Assembly: GCA_031273445.1 (NCBI GenBank)
Contig: JAISRV010000108.1
Span: 1 to 13,134 of the forward strand
Length of the DNA: 13,134 nt
Direction of reading: 5' to 3'
From: Candidatus Adiutrix sp.
GTDB taxonomy: Bacteria; Desulfobacterota; Desulfarculia; Adiutricales; Adiutricaceae
Shown here: positions 2,127 through 13,134 of the stretch, in pieces
Layout of the letters: every line of letters starts with the position of its first letter
How positions within the stretch are numbered: position 1 is the first letter of the stretch
Notes under the pieces: model-generated
Seen by the model: the letters and a program-made list of their open reading frames with translations, nothing else
Databases searched by the model: none
Told to the model about the DNA's origin: nothing
Made by a program: the position numbers and the translations under genes

Positions 2127-3506
2127 TCAGTGGTGTTTGGGGTCGCCGGCGTAGGTGGTGTGAAGCAGCTTGTGGCTTTCTTTGCCGAGGGGCTTTTTCA
2201 GAAAATCGTCATACAGCTTTTTCACCGAAGGGTTCTCGTGCGACTTGCGCACCGGCAGTTCCTTATCGTGCGAATAGGTGGCGGCCGCGCGGGCCCTGTA
2301 GGCTTCGGGCAGGTCAAGGTCCACCAGCAACTTGGGCTGGCCGCCGCCGGTGACGCAACCTTCGGGGCAGGTCATGACTTCGATAAAATGATAGTCGTTC
2401 AGCCGGCCGGCCTTGAGCTCCTCCATGACCGGCTCCACATTTTTGAGGCCGGTCACGATGCCTACCTTTAGTTTCAGTTGGCCTACCGGCACTTCGGCCG
2501 TGCGGAAGCCGTCCGTGCCGCGCACCGCGGCGATGTCCACGGCTGGGATGGCTTCGCCGGTCAGAAGTTCATAGCCGGTGCGCAGAGCCGCCTCCATGAC
2601 GCCGCCGGTGACGCCGAATATGCCGGCGGCCCCGGAATAATCGCCCAGAGGTTTGTCGAAGCCCTCGTCGGGCAAGGCGGCGAAATCTATGCCCAGATCT
2701 TTGATGAGCCAAGCCAATTCCCTGGTGGTCATGACCACGTCGACGTCGCGGCCGCCGCTGTCGCTCATTTCCGGGCGGCTGGATTCAAACTGCTTGCAGG
2801 TGCAAGGCATAACCGAAACGACATAAATTTTTTCCGCCGGCGTTTTAGTGATTTTCGCGCCGTAGGTCTTCATCAGGGCGCCTTCGATCTGCTGCGGGCT
2901 TTTGGTGCTGGAAAGATGGTTCCTTAAGTCCGGATGCTTTGTTTCCACATAGCGCACCCAGGCTGGGCAGCAGGACGTGAACATCGGCAGCAGGCCCTTG
3001 TTCGTCACCCGGTCGATCAATTCGCTGCCCTCTTCCATGATGGTGACGTCGGCGCCGAAGTTGGCGTCGTAAACTTTGTTGAAGCCGATGCGCCTCAGGG
3101 CGGCGGCCAATTTGCCGGCGGCCAGGGTGCCCAGGGGGTAGCCGAAATCCTCGGCTATGGCCATGCGAACGGCCGGGGCGCACTGCACCAGGGTGAACTT
3201 GTCCGGGTCGGCCAAGGCCGCCTTGACTTCGTTCAGGCGGCAGACGTTATAAGCCGCGAACAGCGGCTCTTTGACCGATTCCGGCAAACCCCGCTCACTA
3301 CGCACTCTTTCATAGGCCTCGGCGCCGTGTTCGGCGACGGAGACGTAGGATTTGCATTTCTGAACGCACTGACCGCACATGACGCAACGGCTTTCGGCGA
3401 TCGTCTGCGGCTGATGCGGATAGCCTTCAATGGCCAGGGTCGGGCAGACTTTGGAGCATTCCTTGCATCCGGTGCAGAGGTTCTGGTCTATGGCGATTAT
3501 GGTCAC
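2127..3506 (-). CDS. hydA: [FeFe]-hydrogenase catalytic subunit of an HDCR-type complex
   Basis: 459-residue cytoplasmic [FeFe]-hydrogenase, predicted to interconvert H2 with protons and electrons at an H-cluster. The N-terminus has a two-cluster ferredoxin domain (C11/C14/C17/C21 and C41/C44/C47/C51). The H-cluster signatures are all present: L1 TSCCPAW (C179, C180), L2 MPCTCKQFE (C235) and L3 [12 protein letters not shown] (C380, C384). Residues matching the CpI proton path are kept (E159, E162, C179, S199). The C-terminal small-subunit-like segment, ending in SHKLLHTTY at 444-452, is fused. There is no signal peptide, twin-arginine motif or membrane segment. The start is GTG at 3506, overlapping the stop of the upstream iron-sulfur gene (GTGA), with a GGGGG-containing ribosome site just before it. 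It is the last gene of the fdhF operon. Its size and context match HydA2 of hydrogen-dependent CO2 reductase rather than NAD(P)-linked bifurcating hydrogenases, which carry longer N-terminal domains and separate flavin subunits. Confidence 0.95.
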
Positions 3507-4084
3507 AGCAACCCCCTTTCCGGGACGCCCGCATTGATGACGGCCAAGGCCTCGGCGGCCGCGATGTTTTTCCGTTTGCGGTCCGCGTCGACATCGGTAA
3601 GATGCAGGGCCTCGTTGGGACAGGCGCGGACGCAGGCCGGGCCGGCCGTATCTTCAAAGCACAGGTCGCACTTGGCGGCGGCGACTTTGCCCTCGTCCGA
3701 ATCGGCCTGGGGCACAGGCCGGCCGTCGACGAAATAAGGCAAAAGCGAGACCGCGCCGAAAGGGCAGGCCATCAGGCAATCCTTGCAGCCGATGCATTTC
3801 TTTTCGTCGACGATGACCACGCCGTCCGCGCGGCTGATGGCGAACTGTTTACAGACGGCCTTGCAGGGCGCGTTTTCGCAGTGTTTGCACTGGATGGGCA
3901 TGCTGGCCGTCTCCATGACGGTTACATAGAGCTTCGGCGTCACGGGCACGGCCACCGTGCCCACCGTCAGGCCCACTTTATTGCGTTTAACGTGGTGAGA
4001 CTGGAAACAGGCCAGTTCACAGGCTTTACAGCCTGAACACTTGCCTGGGTCAGCGCTCACGAACAAACCGAATTCACTTGGCAT
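3503..4084 (-). CDS. hycB: HycB-type electron-transfer subunit with four [4Fe-4S] clusters (distal copy, next to hydA)
   Basis: 193-residue polyferredoxin of the HycB/HydN family, expected to carry electrons between hydrogenase and formate dehydrogenase. Sixteen cysteines form four binding groups: KCSGCKACELAC near residue 15, QCKHCENAPCKAVCK in the middle, KCIGCKDCLMACPF near 95, and KCDLC...CVRACP near 140. There is no signal peptide or membrane helix, so it is cytoplasmic. The C-terminal 35 residues are Ala-rich and likely helical; in characterised HDCR a C-terminal helix of a HycB subunit takes part in filament assembly, but whether that applies here is unknown. The ATG at 4084 is supported by a near-perfect Shine-Dalgarno GGAGGTGA six bases upstream. 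The stop overlaps the GTG start of hydA by four bases, indicating translational coupling. It is paralogous to the iron-sulfur gene at 4290-4820 and corresponds by position to hycB3 of the Acetobacterium HDCR cluster. Confidence 0.92.
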   Translation of the reverse strand: MPSEFGLFVSADPGKCSGCKACELACFQSHHVKRNKVGLTVGTVAVPVTPKLYVTVMETASMPIQCKHCENAPCKAVCKQFAISRADGVVIVDEKKCIGCKDCLMACPFGAVSLLPYFVDGRPVPQADSDEGKVAAAKCDLCFEDTAGPACVRACPNEALHLTDVDADRKRKNIAAAEALAVINAGVPERGLL

Positions 4085-4204
4085 CAGATATCACCTCCAC
4101 ATAATATCCGGGCGGGGATAAGACCCGCGGCGACATTCGTCGGGCCTCGCCGCCGGTGTTCGACCGGGGCGGGGGGCGGCTTCAGGCGACGCGCCGATCC
4201 GGTT

Positions 4205-4307
4205 TCGGCCGGCGTTTCTAAGATTCCTGCGACAGTTTTTCGACCCGATGCCTGTCCCATAACGCCTCAGCCGATCTCGGCCGGCGTTTCTAAGATTCCT
4301 GCGACAG
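4205..4307. repeat. 31-bp direct repeat (4205-4235 and 4277-4307), 72 bp apart
   Basis: An identical 31-bp sequence occurs at 4205-4235 and 4277-4307. On the - strand the 4277-4307 copy spans the last codons and TAG stop of the upstream hycB plus 13 bases beyond. The other copy lies 72 bp (exactly 24 codons) downstream in the same frame, so LSQES-stop is spelled twice. Similarity continues weakly for about 8-10 bases past the exact match. This looks like a duplicated gene end, from slippage or unequal recombination. The rest of the 205-bp gap (4085-4289) holds GC-rich sequence and the strong ribosome site of the next gene; I see no other gene there. Confidence 0.85.
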
Positions 4308-4820
4308 GGCGGCCTCCAGGGCGCCCAGGCGCTTGAGCCTGATGGTTTCGCCCATGTTTTCCTGCGTCACCAGCCTCAGGGCGGCCGTCGGGCAAACCCG
4401 CAGGCAGGTCGGCCCTCCGGGCACGTCTTTGCAGAGATCACACTTGTTGGCCGTCGCTTTGGGGCTGCCGTCGGCGTTGAGCACGCCGCCGAGAGTCACC
4501 ATTTCCACGGCCCCGAAGGGGCAGGCCTCGGCGCAGGACTTGCAGCCGATGCACAAGGCGCGGTCGATGCTGACCGCGCCGTCGATCCTGGAAATGGCTC
4601 CGGACTTGCAAACCGCCATGCAGGCCGGGTTTTCGCAATGCTTGCACTGCACGGGCACGCTGACGTTATAGGTTTTGACGACTTTGAGCCGGGGATGGAA
4701 ATCGTAGCCGTCCGGGTCAATTTCAAATATACGCAGGCCCTCGTGGGCCACCACGCAACCGATCATGCAGGTGCGGCAGCCGATGCAAAGCATCGGATCT
4801 CCCTGAACAAACCCATTCAT
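4290..4820 (-). CDS. hycB: HycB-type electron-transfer subunit with four [4Fe-4S] clusters (proximal copy, next to fdhF)
   Basis: 176-residue polyferredoxin, the likely direct redox partner of the formate dehydrogenase encoded just upstream. Four cysteine groups are visible: LCIGCRTCMIGC near residue 12, QCKHCENPACMAVCK near 59, LCIGCKSCAEACPF near 89, and KCDLC...CLRVCP near 126, enough for four [4Fe-4S] clusters. It is cytoplasmic, with no signal peptide or membrane segment. The ATG overlaps the fdhF stop (ATGA), and a purine-rich GGGGAGGG lies just upstream inside the end of fdhF, so translation is coupled. The gene ends in TAG, and its last codons belong to the 31-bp repeat duplicated 72 bp downstream. 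It is a paralogue of the gene at 3503-4084, with the same cluster layout but a different, basic C-terminus (IRLKRLGALEAALSQES). Confidence 0.92.
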   Translation of the reverse strand: MNGFVQGDPMLCIGCRTCMIGCVVAHEGLRIFEIDPDGYDFHPRLKVVKTYNVSVPVQCKHCENPACMAVCKSGAISRIDGAVSIDRALCIGCKSCAEACPFGAVEMVTLGGVLNADGSPKATANKCDLCKDVPGGPTCLRVCPTAALRLVTQENMGETIRLKRLGALEAALSQES

Positions 4821-7006
4821 GCGGCCCTCCCCTCTTTCATGTCGATGCCCATGCGGCCGCGAATCAGCTCATATTCTTCGCGCACATGTTTTTCCGCCCA
4901 AGCCTGGTCTTCGATCTTTTCGACTTTACAGGCGCAATACTTGTATTCGGGCGTTTTGCTGATGGGGTCAAAGTTCCCGATCGTCAGTTCGTTGCAGGCC
5001 CCGATCCACCATTGGTAGGTCATATAGACGGCCCCCTTGGCGACGCGCCCGGTCGGGAGACATCTGGTGATGCAGTAGCCGCGCTTGGACAGCACCTTGA
5101 CCAGTTCGCCTTCAGCCAGGCCCAGGACCTCGCAGTCGGCCGGGTTCATCTGAATCCAGCCTGGTTCGTCTTCCAGGTTGCGCAGAGTTCGGCAGTTGCC
5201 GGTCATGGTGCGCACCGAATAGTGCCCGACCTCGCGAACCGTGGAGAGGGTCAGGGGGTACAGCTCATTTTCCAGCTCCAGAGGCGGCCGCCAGTCGGTG
5301 GCGAAAAATTTGGCCCTGCCGTCGGGATGGGCGAATTTGCCGTCTTTATGCAGAAAAGATGTGCCCTTGTCGTGGTCTTCCTTGCTGCGGCAGGGCCACT
5401 GGACGCAGACGTTTTTCTCGATCTTTTCGTCGGTGGCGCCGGCGAAGCCGGGGCAGAGCTCAATCACTTCGTTCCAGATTTCCACGGTGTTTTTATAGCT
5501 CATGGGATAGCCCATGGCCGTGGAAACCAGGCTGATGATTTCCCAGTCGGTCTTGACGTCGCCGCTGGGCTCAACGAGCTTGCGCGCCTTCTGAAAGCCC
5601 CGGTCGCAGCAGGAATAGACGGCGTCATGCTCGCACCAGCCGGTGGCCGGCAGAATGACGTCGGCATACTGCCCGGTTTTGTTCATATAAATGTCCTGAA
5701 GAACCACGAAGTCGCACTTCTCCAAAGCCTCCCGCACCTCGGCCAAGTCCGGGTCGGACTGGGCCGGATCCTCGCCCATGATGTAATAGGCGTGGACCTG
5801 TTTTTTAGGGTCGGTTTCGTGCAGCACCTGATGCGGCACCATGGTCAGGGTGAAGCCGGGCTGGTCGGACAGCTTCACGCCCCAAGCCTTTTCGAATTTT
5901 GCCCGCACCTCCGGAACAGTGACGCTCTGGTAGCCCGGATAGACATTGGGCAACGCGCCCATGTCGCAGGCGCCCTGCACGTTGTTCTGGCCCCGCACCG
6001 GGCCGATGCCCACGGAGGGGCGGCCGAAGTTGCCGGTCATGATGGCCAGGTTAGCCAGACCCTTGACCACGTCCACCGCCTGACCGAACTGGCAGACGCC
6101 CATGCCGTAAAGAATCATGGAGCGGCCGCTTAAGGCGTACATCCTGGCGGCTTTCCTGATGTCGGCGGCCTCGACCCGGGTTTGGGCGGTCACGCTTTCG
6201 GGCGTGTATTTTTTTATGACTTCCTTGAATTCGTCAAAGCCGTTCGCGTGTTTTTCAATGAAGTCGTAGTCGCACAGCCCTTCTTCCAGAATGACGTTGG
6301 CCAGGGCGTTGACCAGAAGAAGGTTGGAACCGCCTTTGAGCTGCAGATGCATATCCGCGATTCGGGCGGTTTCGATGCGCCGGGGATCAACGCAGATTAT
6401 TTTGGCGCCTTTCTGCTTGGCGCGCACTATGCGGCGGGCGACGATCGGGTGGGACTCGGCGCCGTGATAGCCAAAGACGAACAACAGGGCGGCGTCTTCT
6501 ATTTCATGCACGCCCATGCTCATAGCTCCTGAACCCAATGAATACTGTAGACCCGCTACAGAAGGGGCGTGTCATATTCGGGCGCAGTGGTCGACGTTGT
6601 TGGTGCCGACCGCGGAGCGGATGAATTTCTGCATCACATAGTTAGCCTCGTTGCCCGAGCCGCGGGCCGAGCCTGTGCCCATAATGGCGTCGGGGCCGTA
6701 TTTCGCCTTTATTTCCGAAAGGCGGCCGGCCACATGGGCAATGGCTTCGGGCCATTCGACCTCCTCCAGGGGGCTGCCTTTGCCGCCCTTGCGAATCATG
6801 GGTTTGACCAGCCTTTTAGTCAGAATCTGGGGGTCGTTGAGATAGTCCCAGCCGTAATGGCCTTTCAGGCACAGGGCGCCGTCGTTGGTGCGGCCGCGGG
6901 CCGGGACGGCTTCCAAAATCTTGTTCTTCTCTATGTCGACGGTGAACATGATCTGGCAGCCGGCCCCGCAATAGGCGCAAGTGCTTTGTATCTGCTTTAT
7001 GGTCAT
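4817..7006 (-). CDS. fdhF: Formate dehydrogenase catalytic subunit with selenocysteine (UGA at 6572-6574)
   Basis: 729-residue molybdopterin (Mo or W) formate dehydrogenase resembling E. coli FdhF (715 residues) along its whole length. A conventional translation splits it at UGA codon 145, but both halves are in one frame and the context CARI-Sec-HAPSVAGL matches the E. coli Sec140 site, so the UGA is read as selenocysteine. The N-terminal [4Fe-4S] ligands are C10, C13, C17 and C46, followed by K48, the counterpart of the electron-relay lysine K44. The active-site His follows Sec (H146), and the conserved arginine lies in PVRGQNNVQG (R338, E. coli R333). The C-terminal cofactor-binding end has STVREVGHYS, MTYQWWIGACNEL and KTPEYKYCA. 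There is no twin-arginine signal, so it is cytoplasmic. ATG at 7006 is preceded by AAGGAG eight bases away. It leads the operon and overlaps the next hycB by ATGA. The predicted role in this complex is CO2 reduction to formate and its reverse. Confidence 0.96.
6539..6574 (-). promoter_or_regulatory. Bacterial SECIS element at the fdhF UGA codon
   Basis: On the - strand, 10 bases after the UGA (6574-6572), a hairpin forms: CUGUAG (6561-6556), loop CGGGU (6555-6551), CUACAG (6550-6545). The E. coli fdhF SECIS sits in the same place and exposes a GGU(C) loop recognised by SelB; here GGU is also at the loop tip. The bases right after UGA (CACGCCCC) also resemble the E. coli CACGGCCC. This supports UGA decoding by SelB and tRNA-Sec rather than termination. 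Confidence 0.85.
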
Positions 7007-7254: not shown

Positions 7255-7283
7255 AGAATAACTCTTTCCGCAAGTTTTGTCAA
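7255..7283 (-). promoter_or_regulatory. Candidate sigma-70-type promoter for the fdhF operon
   Basis: On the - strand TTGACA (7283-7278) is separated by 17 bases from TATTCT (7260-7255). The -35 is perfect and the -10 matches 4 of 6. It would give a 5' leader of about 240 nt before the fdhF ATG. This is a pattern match only; other promoters, including sigma-54 types, are not excluded. Confidence 0.4.
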
Positions 7284-7583: not shown

Positions 7584-9473
7584 ATGAAAAAATTTTTCGG
7601 CGAACATTTAACCGCTCCTTTATTCTTTGTCTCGGCTATTATCATGCTTTTTATATCCATTTACATCAGCATGATGATGAATTCAACCTCCGCTTTTCTC
7701 AAATCCAATATCGAATCCCGCCTTATAGCCATCAGCCGCCTGGCCGCCCAGGAGGCGACCCCATATGAACTCAGCCAGTTGGTCAGGCCGGAGGACATGG
7801 AAAAACCGCTATACGGCGAGTTGAAGCGGCGCCTGATCGCTTTCGGCGAAGAAGAGGACGTGCTTTTCGTCTATTACATGCGGCTGACTGAAGAGGGGCA
7901 GTGCCAATTCATAATAGACAACGATCTGACTGAAGACAGCGTGAGCCTGGCCAGCGAGCCTATCGACATAGAGCCCAGCCCGGAACTGGCCTTTTCCGGC
8001 CAGGCGGCCACCGCGGGGCTCGGCAATTATTCCGTGGGCTACACGGGGCTGCTCTCCTCTTTCGCCCCGGTCTTCGACGAAGAAGGCCGGGTGACCGCCA
8101 TAGCCGGAGTGGACATAACCGACGAGCAGGTCATCGTCATGCAGGACACTGTCGACAAGCTGGCCGCCATGTTGACGTTTTCCATGGTGGTAGTCCTGTC
8201 CAGCGGTTGCCTGGGGTTCTATCTCTACCGCCGCAAGGCCCGGCAGTCAAATGCGGCCAACCTTTCCAAGAGCCGGTTTCTGGCCAACATGAGCCACGAG
8301 ATACGAACCCCGCTCAACGCCATCATCGGCCTGTCGGAGATAGAGATGCAGAAGGAGCTGCCGCAGGAAACGCTGATTGATATTGAAAAAATCCGCAACT
8401 CCGGCGTCAACCTTCTGGGCATCATCAACGACATTCTGGACATCTCCAAAATAGAGGCCGGGGCCTTTGAAATAATTTTGGCCGACTTTGACGTGCCGAT
8501 GCTCATCAACGAGGTCGTGCAGCAAAATATCGTCCGCATAGGCGCAAAAAACATAAAATTCGTCTTGAAACTGGACGAGACCTTCCCGAATACCCTTCAT
8601 GGCGACGCGTTGCGCATCCGTCAAGTTTTGACCAACGTGCTTTCCAACGCCTTCAAATACACCAAGGAGGGCACGGTCACGCTGAGCATGGAATGGAAAC
8701 GCGCCGCCCCTTTCGCGGAATGCTCCTTCACCGTGTCCGACACTGGCGTCGGCATAAAACATGAAGACCTGACCAGGATGTTCAATGACTATACCCAGCT
8801 TAATTCAGCCGCCGACAGGAATATCGAAGGGACAGGCCTGGGGCTGGCCATAACGAAAAACCTGCTAAGGCTGATGGGCGGGAACATCACGGTTGAAAGC
8901 GAATACGGCTCCGGCAGCCGCTTTACGGTGAATTTGCCCTTGAAGATGGTCGGTGATGAGCCAATAGGCCTGCGGACAGCTGAGGAACTGACCAATTACA
9001 GCGACTCGAAAATGCGGCGCCGGCGGAAAAGCAATTTCGTTAGGTCCAAAATACCGCCCGGGCGGGTTTTAATCGTCGACGATCTTGACGTCAACCTCAT
9101 GGTGGCCAAAGGCCTTTTGAAGAGCTACGGCCTGGCCGTGGACACCGCCGCCAGCGGCGCCGAGGCCATTGAGAAGATACGTTCCGCGGCCCAGGGCCCG
9201 GTTTTGGAAAGATACGACATGGTGTTCATGGATCACATGATGCCCGGCATGGACGGCGTTGAGGCGACTCGCATCATTCGCCGGGAGATTGCCTCCGACT
9301 ACGCCAGGGCGGTGCCGATCATCGCCCTGACCGCCAATGCCCTGGCCGGCAGCCGGGAGATGTTCCTTGAAAACGGTTTTAATTCTTTCCTGCCCAAGCC
9401 CATCAACGTCGCCCAGCTGGATCGCGAGTTGAGCGCCTGGATCAAAGAGAAGCATTCAACTGATGACGTTTGA
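7584..9473 (+). CDS. Membrane-bound hybrid sensor histidine kinase (sensor - HisKA - HATPase - REC)
   Basis: 629-residue hybrid two-component kinase. Membrane helices at about 10-32 and 194-215 flank a roughly 160-residue extracytoplasmic domain; its end (SSFAPVFDEEGRVTAIAGVDI, in pieces) looks like a Cache/PAS-type ligand sensor. The HisKA H-box FLANMSHEIRTPLNA has phospho-acceptor His238. The ATPase domain has an N-box around N351/N355, a G1 box DTGVGI (386-391) and a G2 box GTGLGL from 416. A basic linker (RRRRK) leads to a C-terminal receiver domain with acidic pair D499-D500, phospho-acceptor D550 (FMDHMMPGMDG) and K605 in LPKP. All catalytic residues are present. No HPt or DNA-binding output domain is in the protein or window, so the partner is elsewhere. 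ATG 7584 is the only start codon after the in-frame stop at 7506; its ribosome site is weak. The gene is divergent from fdhF and overlaps the next gene by 11 nt. The ligand is unknown. Confidence 0.93.
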   Translation: MKKFFGEHLTAPLFFVSAIIMLFISIYISMMMNSTSAFLKSNIESRLIAISRLAAQEATPYELSQLVRPEDMEKPLYGELKRRLIAFGEEEDVLFVYYMRLTEEGQCQFIIDNDLTEDSVSLASEPIDIEPSPELAFSGQAATAGLGNYSVGYTGLLSSFAPVFDEEGRVTAIAGVDITDEQVIVMQDTVDKLAAMLTFSMVVVLSSGCLGFYLYRRKARQSNAANLSKSRFLANMSHEIRTPLNAIIGLSEIEMQKELPQETLIDIEKIRNSGVNLLGIINDILDISKIEAGAFEIILADFDVPMLINEVVQQNIVRIGAKNIKFVLKLDETFPNTLHGDALRIRQVLTNVLSNAFKYTKEGTVTLSMEWKRAAPFAECSFTVSDTGVGIKHEDLTRMFNDYTQLNSAADRNIEGTGLGLAITKNLLRLMGGNITVESEYGSGSRFTVNLPLKMVGDEPIGLRTAEELTNYSDSKMRRRRKSNFVRSKIPPGRVLIVDDLDVNLMVAKGLLKSYGLAVDTAASGAEAIEKIRSAAQGPVLERYDMVFMDHMMPGMDGVEATRIIRREIASDYARAVPIIALTANALAGSREMFLENGFNSFLPKPINVAQLDRELSAWIKEKHSTDDV

Positions 9474-10845
9474 TTTTTTGCGGCCCCTGGCCGAAGCCAT
9501 GGCGAAAAAAAACGGACGACTCCTCCTGGCGGGCGGAGTGGTGCGCGACCATTTTCTGAAGCTGTTCCGCGGCATGAGCCAGGCCGATGAAGAGAAGACC
9601 GACTGCGATCTGGCCGCTTCGGGGCTGGGCTTGGAAAAAATTTTGGAAATAGCGGCCGGCTTCGGCCCGGCCAAAATCGTCCGCCGTCGAACCTGCCTTG
9701 ATCAGGCCAGGGAAAGCGCCCTGATTCAATTGAAACTGAACGGCAAGCTGTTGGAATTGAGTCTGGTCCGCGGCCTGCCCACGGGCGGCGACGGCCTGCC
9801 TGATGACGCCCTGGCCCGCGATTACACCATCAACGCCGTTTATCTCGACCCGCTGACCGATGAGGCGCTGGATCCCCTGGGCGGCCTGAGCGACCTGAAG
9901 CGGGGCCGCCTGCGGCTGTGCCGCGATCAGGCCCTGGCCGATGACCCGCTGCGGATGCTGCGAGGGATGGGCCTGATTTCCCGTTTTGACTTATCGCCCG
10001 CGCCCCAGCTGCTGGCGGCGGTCAAACGTGACTTGAACGGTTTGATCCGGGTTCCCCCCGACCGCTTTTGGCCGGAATGGCGCAAATGGGCCGCGAGCGC
10101 CCGGCCGCATCTGGGCCTGGATTTTCTGGAGGCCAGCGGCCTTCTGCGCTTCTGGCCGCAACTGTACGTCCTGAAGCAAACCCCCCAGGATCCGTATTTT
10201 CACCCGGAGGGCGACGTCTGGCGGCATACGGCGCTGGCCGTCAAGGTCATGTCCGAACTGCCGCTGGAAACGGCTGACCGACGGATCAAACTGGTTCTGG
10301 CCGCGCTTCTGCATGACTTGGGGAAACCCGCGGTCACCACCCGGCATGAAGGCCGGTGGGTTTCGCGAAGGCATGCCCAGGCGGGTTTGCCTCCGGCTGA
10401 AGAATTTTTGCGCTCCATCAAAGCTCCCGGCCAGCTGATTCCGCCGGTGCTGAAGCTGGTCGGCCTTCACATGGACCTGAAACCTCAAGACGTCGCCCCC
10501 AAGGCCCTGCGCCGCCTGGCCCGGCGTTTAGCCCCGGAATGCGATCTGGCCGATTATTGGGCCTTGAGCGTGGCCGACTGGAACGGGCGCGGCCCGGGTC
10601 TGGAGCCGTTTCCCCTGAGTTTGACCGAATTTTTGGCCCCGGCGGGCAATCTGGCCCGGCCCCGGCCGCCGTTTCTGCGGGGGCGAGATTTGATGGCGCG
10701 TTTCAACCTGGCCCCGGGGCCGGCGATGGGGCGAATATTGCGGCGGCTGGATGAAGCGGCCGATGACGGGCTGGTCAAAGACGAACCGGAGGCCCTGGCC
10801 CTGGCGGCCCGGATGATCAAGGAAGAAGCCGGCCGGCGGCCGTGA
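9463..10845 (+). CDS. cca: CCA-adding / poly(A) polymerase-family tRNA nucleotidyltransferase with HD domain
   Basis: 460-residue class II nucleotidyltransferase. It probably builds or repairs the 3' CCA end of tRNAs, though an A-adding enzyme or poly(A) polymerase cannot be excluded from sequence. Visible motifs: GG-x-VRD near 24-29, metal-binding D47 and D49 in TDCDLA, the RDYTINAVYLDP motif (R119-D120), and DPLRMLRG from about 161. The nucleotide-selecting region is less standard (PPDRFWPEW at about 198-206, where many members have an E-R pair). The C-terminal half is an HD phosphohydrolase domain with HPEGDVWRHT (H247, H255), LLHDLGKP (H284-D285) and H304, as in E. coli-type Cca. Its ATG lies inside the last codons of the kinase gene (11-nt overlap, different frame), with only a weak purine stretch upstream, so expression is probably coupled to the kinase. 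The protein is soluble and cytosolic. Confidence 0.9.
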   Translation: MTFDFLRPLAEAMAKKNGRLLLAGGVVRDHFLKLFRGMSQADEEKTDCDLAASGLGLEKILEIAAGFGPAKIVRRRTCLDQARESALIQLKLNGKLLELSLVRGLPTGGDGLPDDALARDYTINAVYLDPLTDEALDPLGGLSDLKRGRLRLCRDQALADDPLRMLRGMGLISRFDLSPAPQLLAAVKRDLNGLIRVPPDRFWPEWRKWAASARPHLGLDFLEASGLLRFWPQLYVLKQTPQDPYFHPEGDVWRHTALAVKVMSELPLETADRRIKLVLAALLHDLGKPAVTTRHEGRWVSRRHAQAGLPPAEEFLRSIKAPGQLIPPVLKLVGLHMDLKPQDVAPKALRRLARRLAPECDLADYWALSVADWNGRGPGLEPFPLSLTEFLAPAGNLARPRPPFLRGRDLMARFNLAPGPAMGRILRRLDEAADDGLVKDEPEALALAARMIKEEAGRRP

Positions 10846-12706: not shown

Positions 12707-13134
12707 ATGAAAAAACCGCCCCTTCTGATGCTGGCCCTCCTGGCCTCGGCCGTCATAGCCCTTTCCGGCGGCTGCGAAGATCAGCCGCGGGAAGAAGCCC
12801 GGCCTCAGGCGGAGGCGGCCGCGCCCACGCTTTCCGCCGCCGGGGAAGAAGCCCTGAAGGCTCGGCTGGCCGAGCTGCGCCAGGCCCTGACGCCGACGAT
12901 GGAGGAAAAGGAGCTGTTAAACGCGGGCCCGGCCGTCTGTGAAGCCGGCTGGACGGAAAGCGGATATTTCGTCAACCACAGCGGCGCGGCCGGCCTCTTC
13001 CACGGCTATGACCGCCCGTTCAACTTCATCTGGACCGGCCCCGTCAAAACCGTCCGGGGAATTGACGGCCGCGGCTACGACCTGATCGACGGCCAGGGGA
13101 CGCTCCTCGTCAAATATATGGACGAAGATCAATT
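12707..13134 (+). CDS. Probable exported lipoprotein, 3'-truncated by the window edge
   Basis: The open frame runs from ATG 12707 off the right end (142 codons seen, no stop). The N-terminus is a signal peptide: MKKPP, then a hydrophobic stretch LLMLALLASAVIALSGG, then Cys23 followed by charged residues (EDQPREEARP). SGGC is a non-ideal lipobox (Ser at -3), but the placement of the Cys at the end of the hydrophobic core favours a lipoprotein. Residues 24-45 are Glu/Ala/Pro-rich, a flexible tether; a helical segment follows (EEALKARLAELRQAL). The region from about 74 has WTESGYFVNH, HGYDRPFNFIWTGP and DGRGYDLIDG, which I do not recognise. A GGAG ribosome site lies five bases before the ATG. 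The function is unknown. Confidence 0.75.
   Translation, partial: MKKPPLLMLALLASAVIALSGGCEDQPREEARPQAEAAAPTLSAAGEEALKARLAELRQALTPTMEEKELLNAGPAVCEAGWTESGYFVNHSGAAGLFHGYDRPFNFIWTGPVKTVRGIDGRGYDLIDGQGTLLVKYMDEDQ

Follow-up and report, generated by a model that had tools for sequence, protein, structure and literature searches.

Do four adjoining genes of an uncultured Desulfobacterota bacterium encode a hydrogen-dependent CO2 reductase (HDCR), the enzyme that ties CO2 fixation directly to H2 and is of interest both for capturing CO2 and for storing hydrogen? The genes lie on a 13,134-nt contig of Candidatus Adiutrix sp. (GenBank JAISRV010000108.1), called the window here. It is contig C56 of a metagenome-assembled genome (MAG) of the genus Adiutrix, Desulfobacterota, with 2.79 Mb in 439 contigs and 71.7% completeness. 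On the minus strand, from 7006 to 2127, fdhF, hycB-a, hycB-b and hydA2 are linked as one cluster with one gap and two overlaps, ATGA for fdhF/hycB-a (4820-4817) and GTGA for hycB-b/hydA2 (3506-3503). An initial annotation had listed a selenocysteine (Sec) fdhF, two four-cluster HycBs, an [FeFe]-hydrogenase and both overlaps, and each of these was recovered in place; the gap between the hycB genes went unmentioned in it. We consider it very likely that the four genes together encode a soluble, reversible HDCR of an Adiutricaceae bacterium.

Among solved structures, HydA2 matched HydA2 of the Thermoanaerobacter kivui HDCR (7qv7_D) with 620 bits, and the runner-up, a chimeric periplasmic [Fe] hydrogenase entry, scored 394 bits. 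The protein passed the group A model FeFe_hydrog_A (423 bits, cut-off 406) and failed the monomeric B1 model (150 bits, cut-off 450), so the earlier wording "monomeric-type" was loose. Two N-terminal CxxCxxCxxxC motifs are present, together with the H-cluster motifs TSCCPAW, MPCTCKQFE and EVMTCPEGC. Relatives of HydA2 were collected from genome contigs, and the best 80 of at least 572 confirmed relatives were kept as loci (labeled L###; contigs are C###, family genomes G###, and this MAG is G000). A tree of 46 rows was built from 41 of these 80 loci plus five other rows. In it, the window HydA2 fell within a 43-row HDCR clade that includes T. kivui and within an Adiutrix-family clade of 13 rows, each with 100 in the SH-like approximate likelihood ratio test (SH-aLRT). 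The MAG's two other [FeFe]-hydrogenases fell outside the HDCR clade, and their H-cluster residues read TSCSPGW, MPCTAK and CPGGC where the window has TSCCPAW, MPCTCK and CPEGC. Of 81 recovered HydA rows, 72 have MPCTCK, 50 have CPEGC and 37 have all three motifs of the window, so this signature is common and not universal. The structure match, the tree and the complete H-cluster motifs place HydA2 among the HDCR hydrogenases, and the HDCR identity proposed in the initial annotation held up in the HydA phylogeny that it had asked for.

FdhF scored 827 bits against the curated formate dehydrogenase alpha model TIGR01591 (cut-off 666). This match, the UGA codon and the hairpin behind it identify FdhF as a formate dehydrogenase of the type that carries Mo/W-bis-pyranopterin guanine dinucleotide (bis-PGD) and Sec or Cys. 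FdhF clustered with HDCR-linked FdhFs in both FdhF trees, as the annotation had expected. One tree held 37 of 65 recovered locus sequences and 12 others, and a more careful one held 24 of the 65 and nine others (33 in all); T. kivui FdhF, at hand as aligned pieces only, was left out of both. The Sec codon occupies the same site in all six FdhFs that adjoin HydA2 among the 12 Adiutrix-family loci. A stem resembling a selenocysteine insertion sequence (SECIS) formed all six pairs in the window register in 32 of 37 fdhF genes of the Sec type and in none of 30 of the Cys type, counts that come from related genes and are not independent events. The register was taken from the window, and one further gene had no readable site. 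The second pair of the stem varies (U-A, A-U or G-U). E. coli fdhF, which forms three of the six pairs, is one of the five Sec genes that do not fit this register. The MAG also encodes SelB (360 bits, cut-off 242).

HycB-a and HycB-b each have 16 cysteines in four 4Fe-4S motifs, and their best matches are the HycB3 and HycB4 polyferredoxins of 7qv7. For hycB-b the choice was clear in the scores (HycB4 183 bits, HycB3 114). For hycB-a, single-sequence scores were 111 for HycB4, 105 for HycB of formate hydrogenlyase (FHL) and 100 for HycB3, and profile scores were 168 for HycB4, 167 for HycB3 and 143 for FHL HycB. Since the two predicted structures had a modest mean predicted local distance difference test score (65 and 69), just their secondary structure and Foldseek ranking were used. 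Foldseek put 7qv7_B first for HycB-b and 7qv7_A first for HycB-a, with FHL HycB second for the latter. The modelled ranking and the position beside fdhF fit hycB-a as HycB3. C-terminal helices were predicted at residues 153-175 of HycB-a and 165-186 of HycB-b, and the C-terminal end of HycB-b is conserved within the family. That alignment holds 23 of 30 intended rows; L020, L050, L061 and L068 (stop codon near the end of the stretch) are out, as are L021, L037 and L064, which had no such stop codon. The C-terminal helices of HycB3 and HycB4 are reported to mediate HDCR filaments (PMC10413684), and the window complex may form filaments in the same way.

The T. kivui HDCR (7qv7) has the same four subunits as the window, and its gene order, fdhF-hycB3-hycB4-hydA2, is also the same (PMC7005907); position and Foldseek rank pair the window HycBs with its HycB3 and HycB4. 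The two systems differ in that T. kivui FdhF has Cys where the window FdhF has Sec, and in that the T. kivui cluster includes fdhD, whereas no fdhD match was found among the nine window proteins scanned. Exactly the window's order, fdhF-hycBa-hycBb-hydA2, was found in 34 of the best 80 HydA2 loci, so the arrangement is not chance. The remainder comprised 20 loci with fdhF-hycBb-hydA2-hycBa, 13 with hycBb-hydA2 only, three convergent, three with a doubled fdhF-hycBa before hycBb-hydA2, three with hycBa-hycBb-hydA2 and no fdhF in reach, and four others; some of these loci are cut by short contigs.

The 12 loci nearest to the window among the best 80 are 72-78% identical in HydA2, come from the same family but different species, and are titled Candidatus Adiutrix or Deltaproteobacteria; Sporobacter, Blautia and Treponema come after them. 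The suspicion that the host was not a typical Firmicutes acetogen was thus borne out. We take the Adiutrix-family records near the window HydA2 to be of termite-gut origin. Adiutricaceae also occur in millipede guts, where they were called putative acetogens (PMC10823672). With more than 70% identity as the threshold, HDCR-type HydA2 was present in 12 of 25 family genomes searched and in five of seven in the genus, this MAG included.

Gene order was less constant within the family. While L004 and L007 are colinear as in the window, the other ten family loci are convergent (three), swapped (one) or have hycBb-hydA2 alone (six). In all 12, hycBb stands beside hydA2, and hycBa stands beside all six fdhFs. 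Genome G008 carries the two halves of the HDCR on separate contigs. Sec-type fdhF was found in seven of 16 family genomes, all seven of which have HDCR-type HydA2, and seven of the eight genomes with HydA2 have Sec-type fdhF.

This MAG has a second fdhF on contig C382 (L126, 3850-6599), with Cys at the site, 68% identity and its own ferredoxin-type hycB. A Cys-type fdhF accompanies the Sec gene in six of seven family genomes, the exception being G003. Acetobacterium is alike: the A. paludosum and A. tundrae loci (L050, L062) have a Sec and a Cys FdhF, each with its own hycB, and one hycB-hydA2 half. There, both fdhF-hycB pairs lie in one cluster, whereas the Cys pair of the MAG is on a separate contig. 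Sec/Cys fdhF pairs are also known from A. woodii and the termite treponeme Treponema primitia (PMC6288185).

In the 33-FdhF tree, treponeme Cys FdhFs nest among the Adiutricaceae Cys copies. This MAG's Cys FdhF is the first branch of the sampled Cys clade (98/98), on a long branch. The approximately unbiased (AU) test, chosen for this question after an earlier tree had been seen, rejected a single clade of the six Adiutricaceae Cys FdhFs (p 2.8e-112). This interleaving with treponemes hints at transfer between phyla. The same test did not reject a single clade of the Adiutricaceae Sec FdhFs (p 0.184), and for this reason we claim no transfer for the Sec form. In G001, contig C148 (L139) carries both a Cys fdhF placed with treponemes (100/99) and an Adiutricaceae-type hycBb-hydA2; the HydA2 was typed from its identity to that of the window (72% and 78% on two contig pieces) and without tree placement. 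As judged from these sequences, the combination suggests transfer between phyla.

It seems to us an even bet that the Adiutricaceae HDCR consists of exchangeable halves, hycBb-hydA2 and a Sec or Cys fdhF-hycBa, and that the Cys half crossed between Adiutricaceae and termite-gut treponemes. If so, acetogens of a single gut would have parts of this enzyme in common without being related. The two-half organization and the interleaved Cys-FdhF tree make exchange of HDCR parts across phyla, and switching with selenium supply, testable. We did not meet either of them in the literature passages covered but make no claim that they are unpublished. Earlier work by the Leadbeater group reportedly dealt with the fdhF genes of treponemes from termites and of uncultured deltaproteobacteria.

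What would the enzyme do in this organism? By homology with purified enzymes, H2 would be split at the H-cluster of HydA2, and electrons would pass over its two further clusters to HycB-b (HycB4), HycB-a (HycB3) and the cluster of FdhF. The Mo/W-bis-PGD center with Sec would then reduce CO2 to formate, reversibly. The homology is with T. kivui HDCR, which interconverts H2/CO2 and formate reversibly (PMC6119302), and with a C. beijerinckii complex of the same four-subunit kind, which has both activities (PMC12905484). Locus L066 of C. beijerinckii, with 58% identity in HydA2, is presumably that of the studied enzyme. The Cys fdhF-hycB pair on C382 probably provides the same hydrogenase half with a catalytic half that needs no selenium. 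Other reductants would come from separate NAD-type [FeFe]-hydrogenases: C425 encodes HydG and HydF, with a NuoF-like gene and the gene of an [FeFe]-hydrogenase of the NADH-dependent A6 type adjoining, and a second A6-type enzyme is on C379. The initial annotation had the HDCR work without NAD or ferredoxin, and the ferredoxin part of this is too strong, as the HDCR of A. woodii can also use reduced ferredoxin, if slowly (PMC6288185).

Formate would enter the methyl branch of the Wood-Ljungdahl pathway, a role that we infer because of acs genes in the MAG. Genes for carbon monoxide dehydrogenase (CODH)/acetyl-CoA synthase are present on two broken contigs. C433 starts with the last 122 residues of AcsB (83% identical to same-genus G003); acsC (89%) comes next, and then a gene for an acsE-like methyltransferase (91%). 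On C10, acsD adjoins acsA, which the contig edge cuts to an N-terminal fragment (83% to G003). Against NCBIfam, acsC and acsD score above the curated cut-offs and the acsB and acsA fragments and the acsE-like gene below them. A search with PF03598 did not find the AcsB core domain in this MAG and found it in six of the seven genomes of the genus. The break of the contig within the gene on C433 explains this negative, and absence of acetyl-CoA synthase from the MAG was rejected. A further CODH on C315 (L131) scored 450 bits, under the cut-off of 478. Adjoining it and an ATP-binding cassette transporter gene is a 713-aa frame (4783-6924) whose N-terminal part resembles a 4Fe-4S ferredoxin and is joined to an O-acetylhomoserine sulfhydrylase domain.

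Several results weigh against an HDCR that serves acetogenesis in this strain. FdhF matches E. coli formate dehydrogenase H (FDH-H) better, with 903 bits, than FdhF of the T. kivui HDCR, with 620 bits, the position of FDH-H at the base of the FdhF tree is not fixed, and hycB-a scores almost equally for HycB4, FHL HycB and HycB3. As far as its sequence goes, FdhF by itself cannot tell HDCR from FHL. In single-sequence folding, the SECIS-like hairpin was no better than shuffles (z 0.23), and tRNA-Sec scored below the cut-off in this MAG (40.8, cut-off 47), although it was above it in six of 16 family genomes searched. HDCR-type HydA2 was not found in 13 of the 25 family genomes; these include G005, which is of the same genus and 95% complete, so the trait is patchy. 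G006 (77% complete) has HydA2 and no FdhF match. Finally, searches for formate-tetrahydrofolate (THF) ligase came up empty in G001, G002 and G014 as well as in this MAG, which is 72% complete. The Wood-Ljungdahl role foreseen in the initial annotation is therefore backed by the acs genes and not by the ligase.

The missing ligase could also mean that the same complex runs mainly in the reverse direction and serves as a soluble formate hydrogenlyase, turning fermentation formate into H2 and CO2 in a strain without acetogenesis. Characterized HDCR enzymes are reversible (PMC6119302, PMC12905484), and HDCR-like clusters of Paenibacillus have been proposed to run this way (PMC6288185). The acs genes of the MAG argue against this, as does the presence of the ligase in 22 of 26 genomes searched and in four of seven in the genus, with the AcsB core domain in six of these seven. 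We consider the reverse direction unlikely. The E. coli type of FHL was rejected for the operon: FdhF closely resembles FDH-H, as the HycBs do HycB of FHL, but the window hydrogenase is [FeFe] and E. coli hydrogenase 3 is [NiFe], and a search limited to the window found no gene for a [NiFe] large subunit or membrane subunit among its proteins.

It is very improbable that FdhF and HydA2 are separate enzymes that merely adjoin, with HydA2 and HycB-b forming an independent ferredoxin-type hydrogenase. Such a split could account for the six of 12 Adiutrix-family loci that have hycBb-hydA2 without fdhF on the DNA fetched, some of it short contigs, and for the separate halves in G008 and the lone HydA2 of G006. 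All four subunits match the solved complex 7qv7, though, the genomes with Sec-type fdhF and those with HydA2 coincide almost entirely (7/7 and 7/8), and strain 3443-3Ac has been predicted to have HDCR genes outside a single cluster (PMC10213532). For a sensory or regulatory [FeFe]-hydrogenase next to an unrelated formate dehydrogenase, we found no point in favor and put the chance close to nil: HydA2 retains the three H-cluster motifs in full, scores above the group A cut-off, contains no sensory domain by Pfam and groups with HDCR HydA2. The motifs and the tree led us to reject a sensory or standalone hydrogenase.

With a reversible HDCR as the preferred reading, the window operon is an ordinary member of a known enzyme type in a known family, since both HDCR and the Adiutricaceae HDCR genes are in print. 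The expectation of an HDCR in a less studied lineage was right about the lineage not being Firmicutes, and was anticipated by HDCR genes already published from Adiutricaceae MAGs (PMC9137090). In two named MAGs, that paper gives all HDCR and Wood-Ljungdahl genes sought except fdhF, and unlinked halves could be why. For acetogenesis by Ca. Adiutrix intracellularis, it cites Ikeda-Ohtsubo 2016. Several sulfate reducers carry HDCR-like clusters as well (PMC6288185). The window operon supports the published view of Adiutricaceae as H2-consuming acetogens. As a further complete operon from an uncultured family thought to be active in gut acetogenesis, it adds sequence diversity.

Table 1. Features of the HDCR operon in the window.
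Feature	Position	Strand	Description
fdhF	4817..7006	-	Sec formate dehydrogenase / CO2 reductase catalytic subunit; 729 residues, UGA read as Sec
hycB-a	4290..4820	-	Polyferredoxin, four 4Fe-4S motifs; HycB3 position beside fdhF
hycB-b	3503..4084	-	Polyferredoxin, four 4Fe-4S motifs; HycB4 type
hydA2	2127..3506	-	HDCR-type [FeFe]-hydrogenase; GTG start; two N-terminal 4Fe-4S motifs and H-cluster
In-frame TGA (Sec codon of fdhF)	6572..6574	-	Context ARI-U-HAP; sole in-frame TGA
SECIS-like hairpin CTGTAG-CGGGT-CTACAG	6545..6561	-	10 nt 3' of Sec codon
Gap hycB-a / hycB-b	4085..4289	-	205 nt
Candidate sigma-70-like promoter upstream of fdhF	7255..7283	-	10/12 consensus match, match only

The coordinates of the operon are collected in Table 1. 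Sigma-70-like matches such as the candidate promoter numbered four in the region, with 1.5 expected. No terminator-like site was found on the minus strand of the gap between the hycB genes, and the region-wide scan gave seven sites compared with 7.3 in shuffles. The gap holds a 37-nt direct repeat (4199-4235 and 4271-4307, 95% identical, 72 nt apart), whose second copy enters the 3' end of hycB-a. Rfam gave no match anywhere in the window. The operon is flanked by lon on one side and a histidine kinase gene on the other. The kinase (7584-9473) had been called Cache-type, but a Pfam scan (E up to 0.001) detects no such domain in it. When 109 loci were compared (E 1e-20), many of them extending just a few kb, lon and the kinase matched pieces of the same MAG only; the lon, kinase, CCA/HD and M18 proteins and the frame at 12707 had no match in other genomes' loci. 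The neighborhood is therefore not conserved in the DNA fetched. Between lon and hydA2, at 2062-2092, a GC-rich hairpin of 13 pairs is followed by T's and is possibly a terminator for the convergent genes. The PolyA_pol/HD protein at 9463-10845 shows a weak likeness to known CCA-adding enzymes (best 112 bits, cut-off 439).

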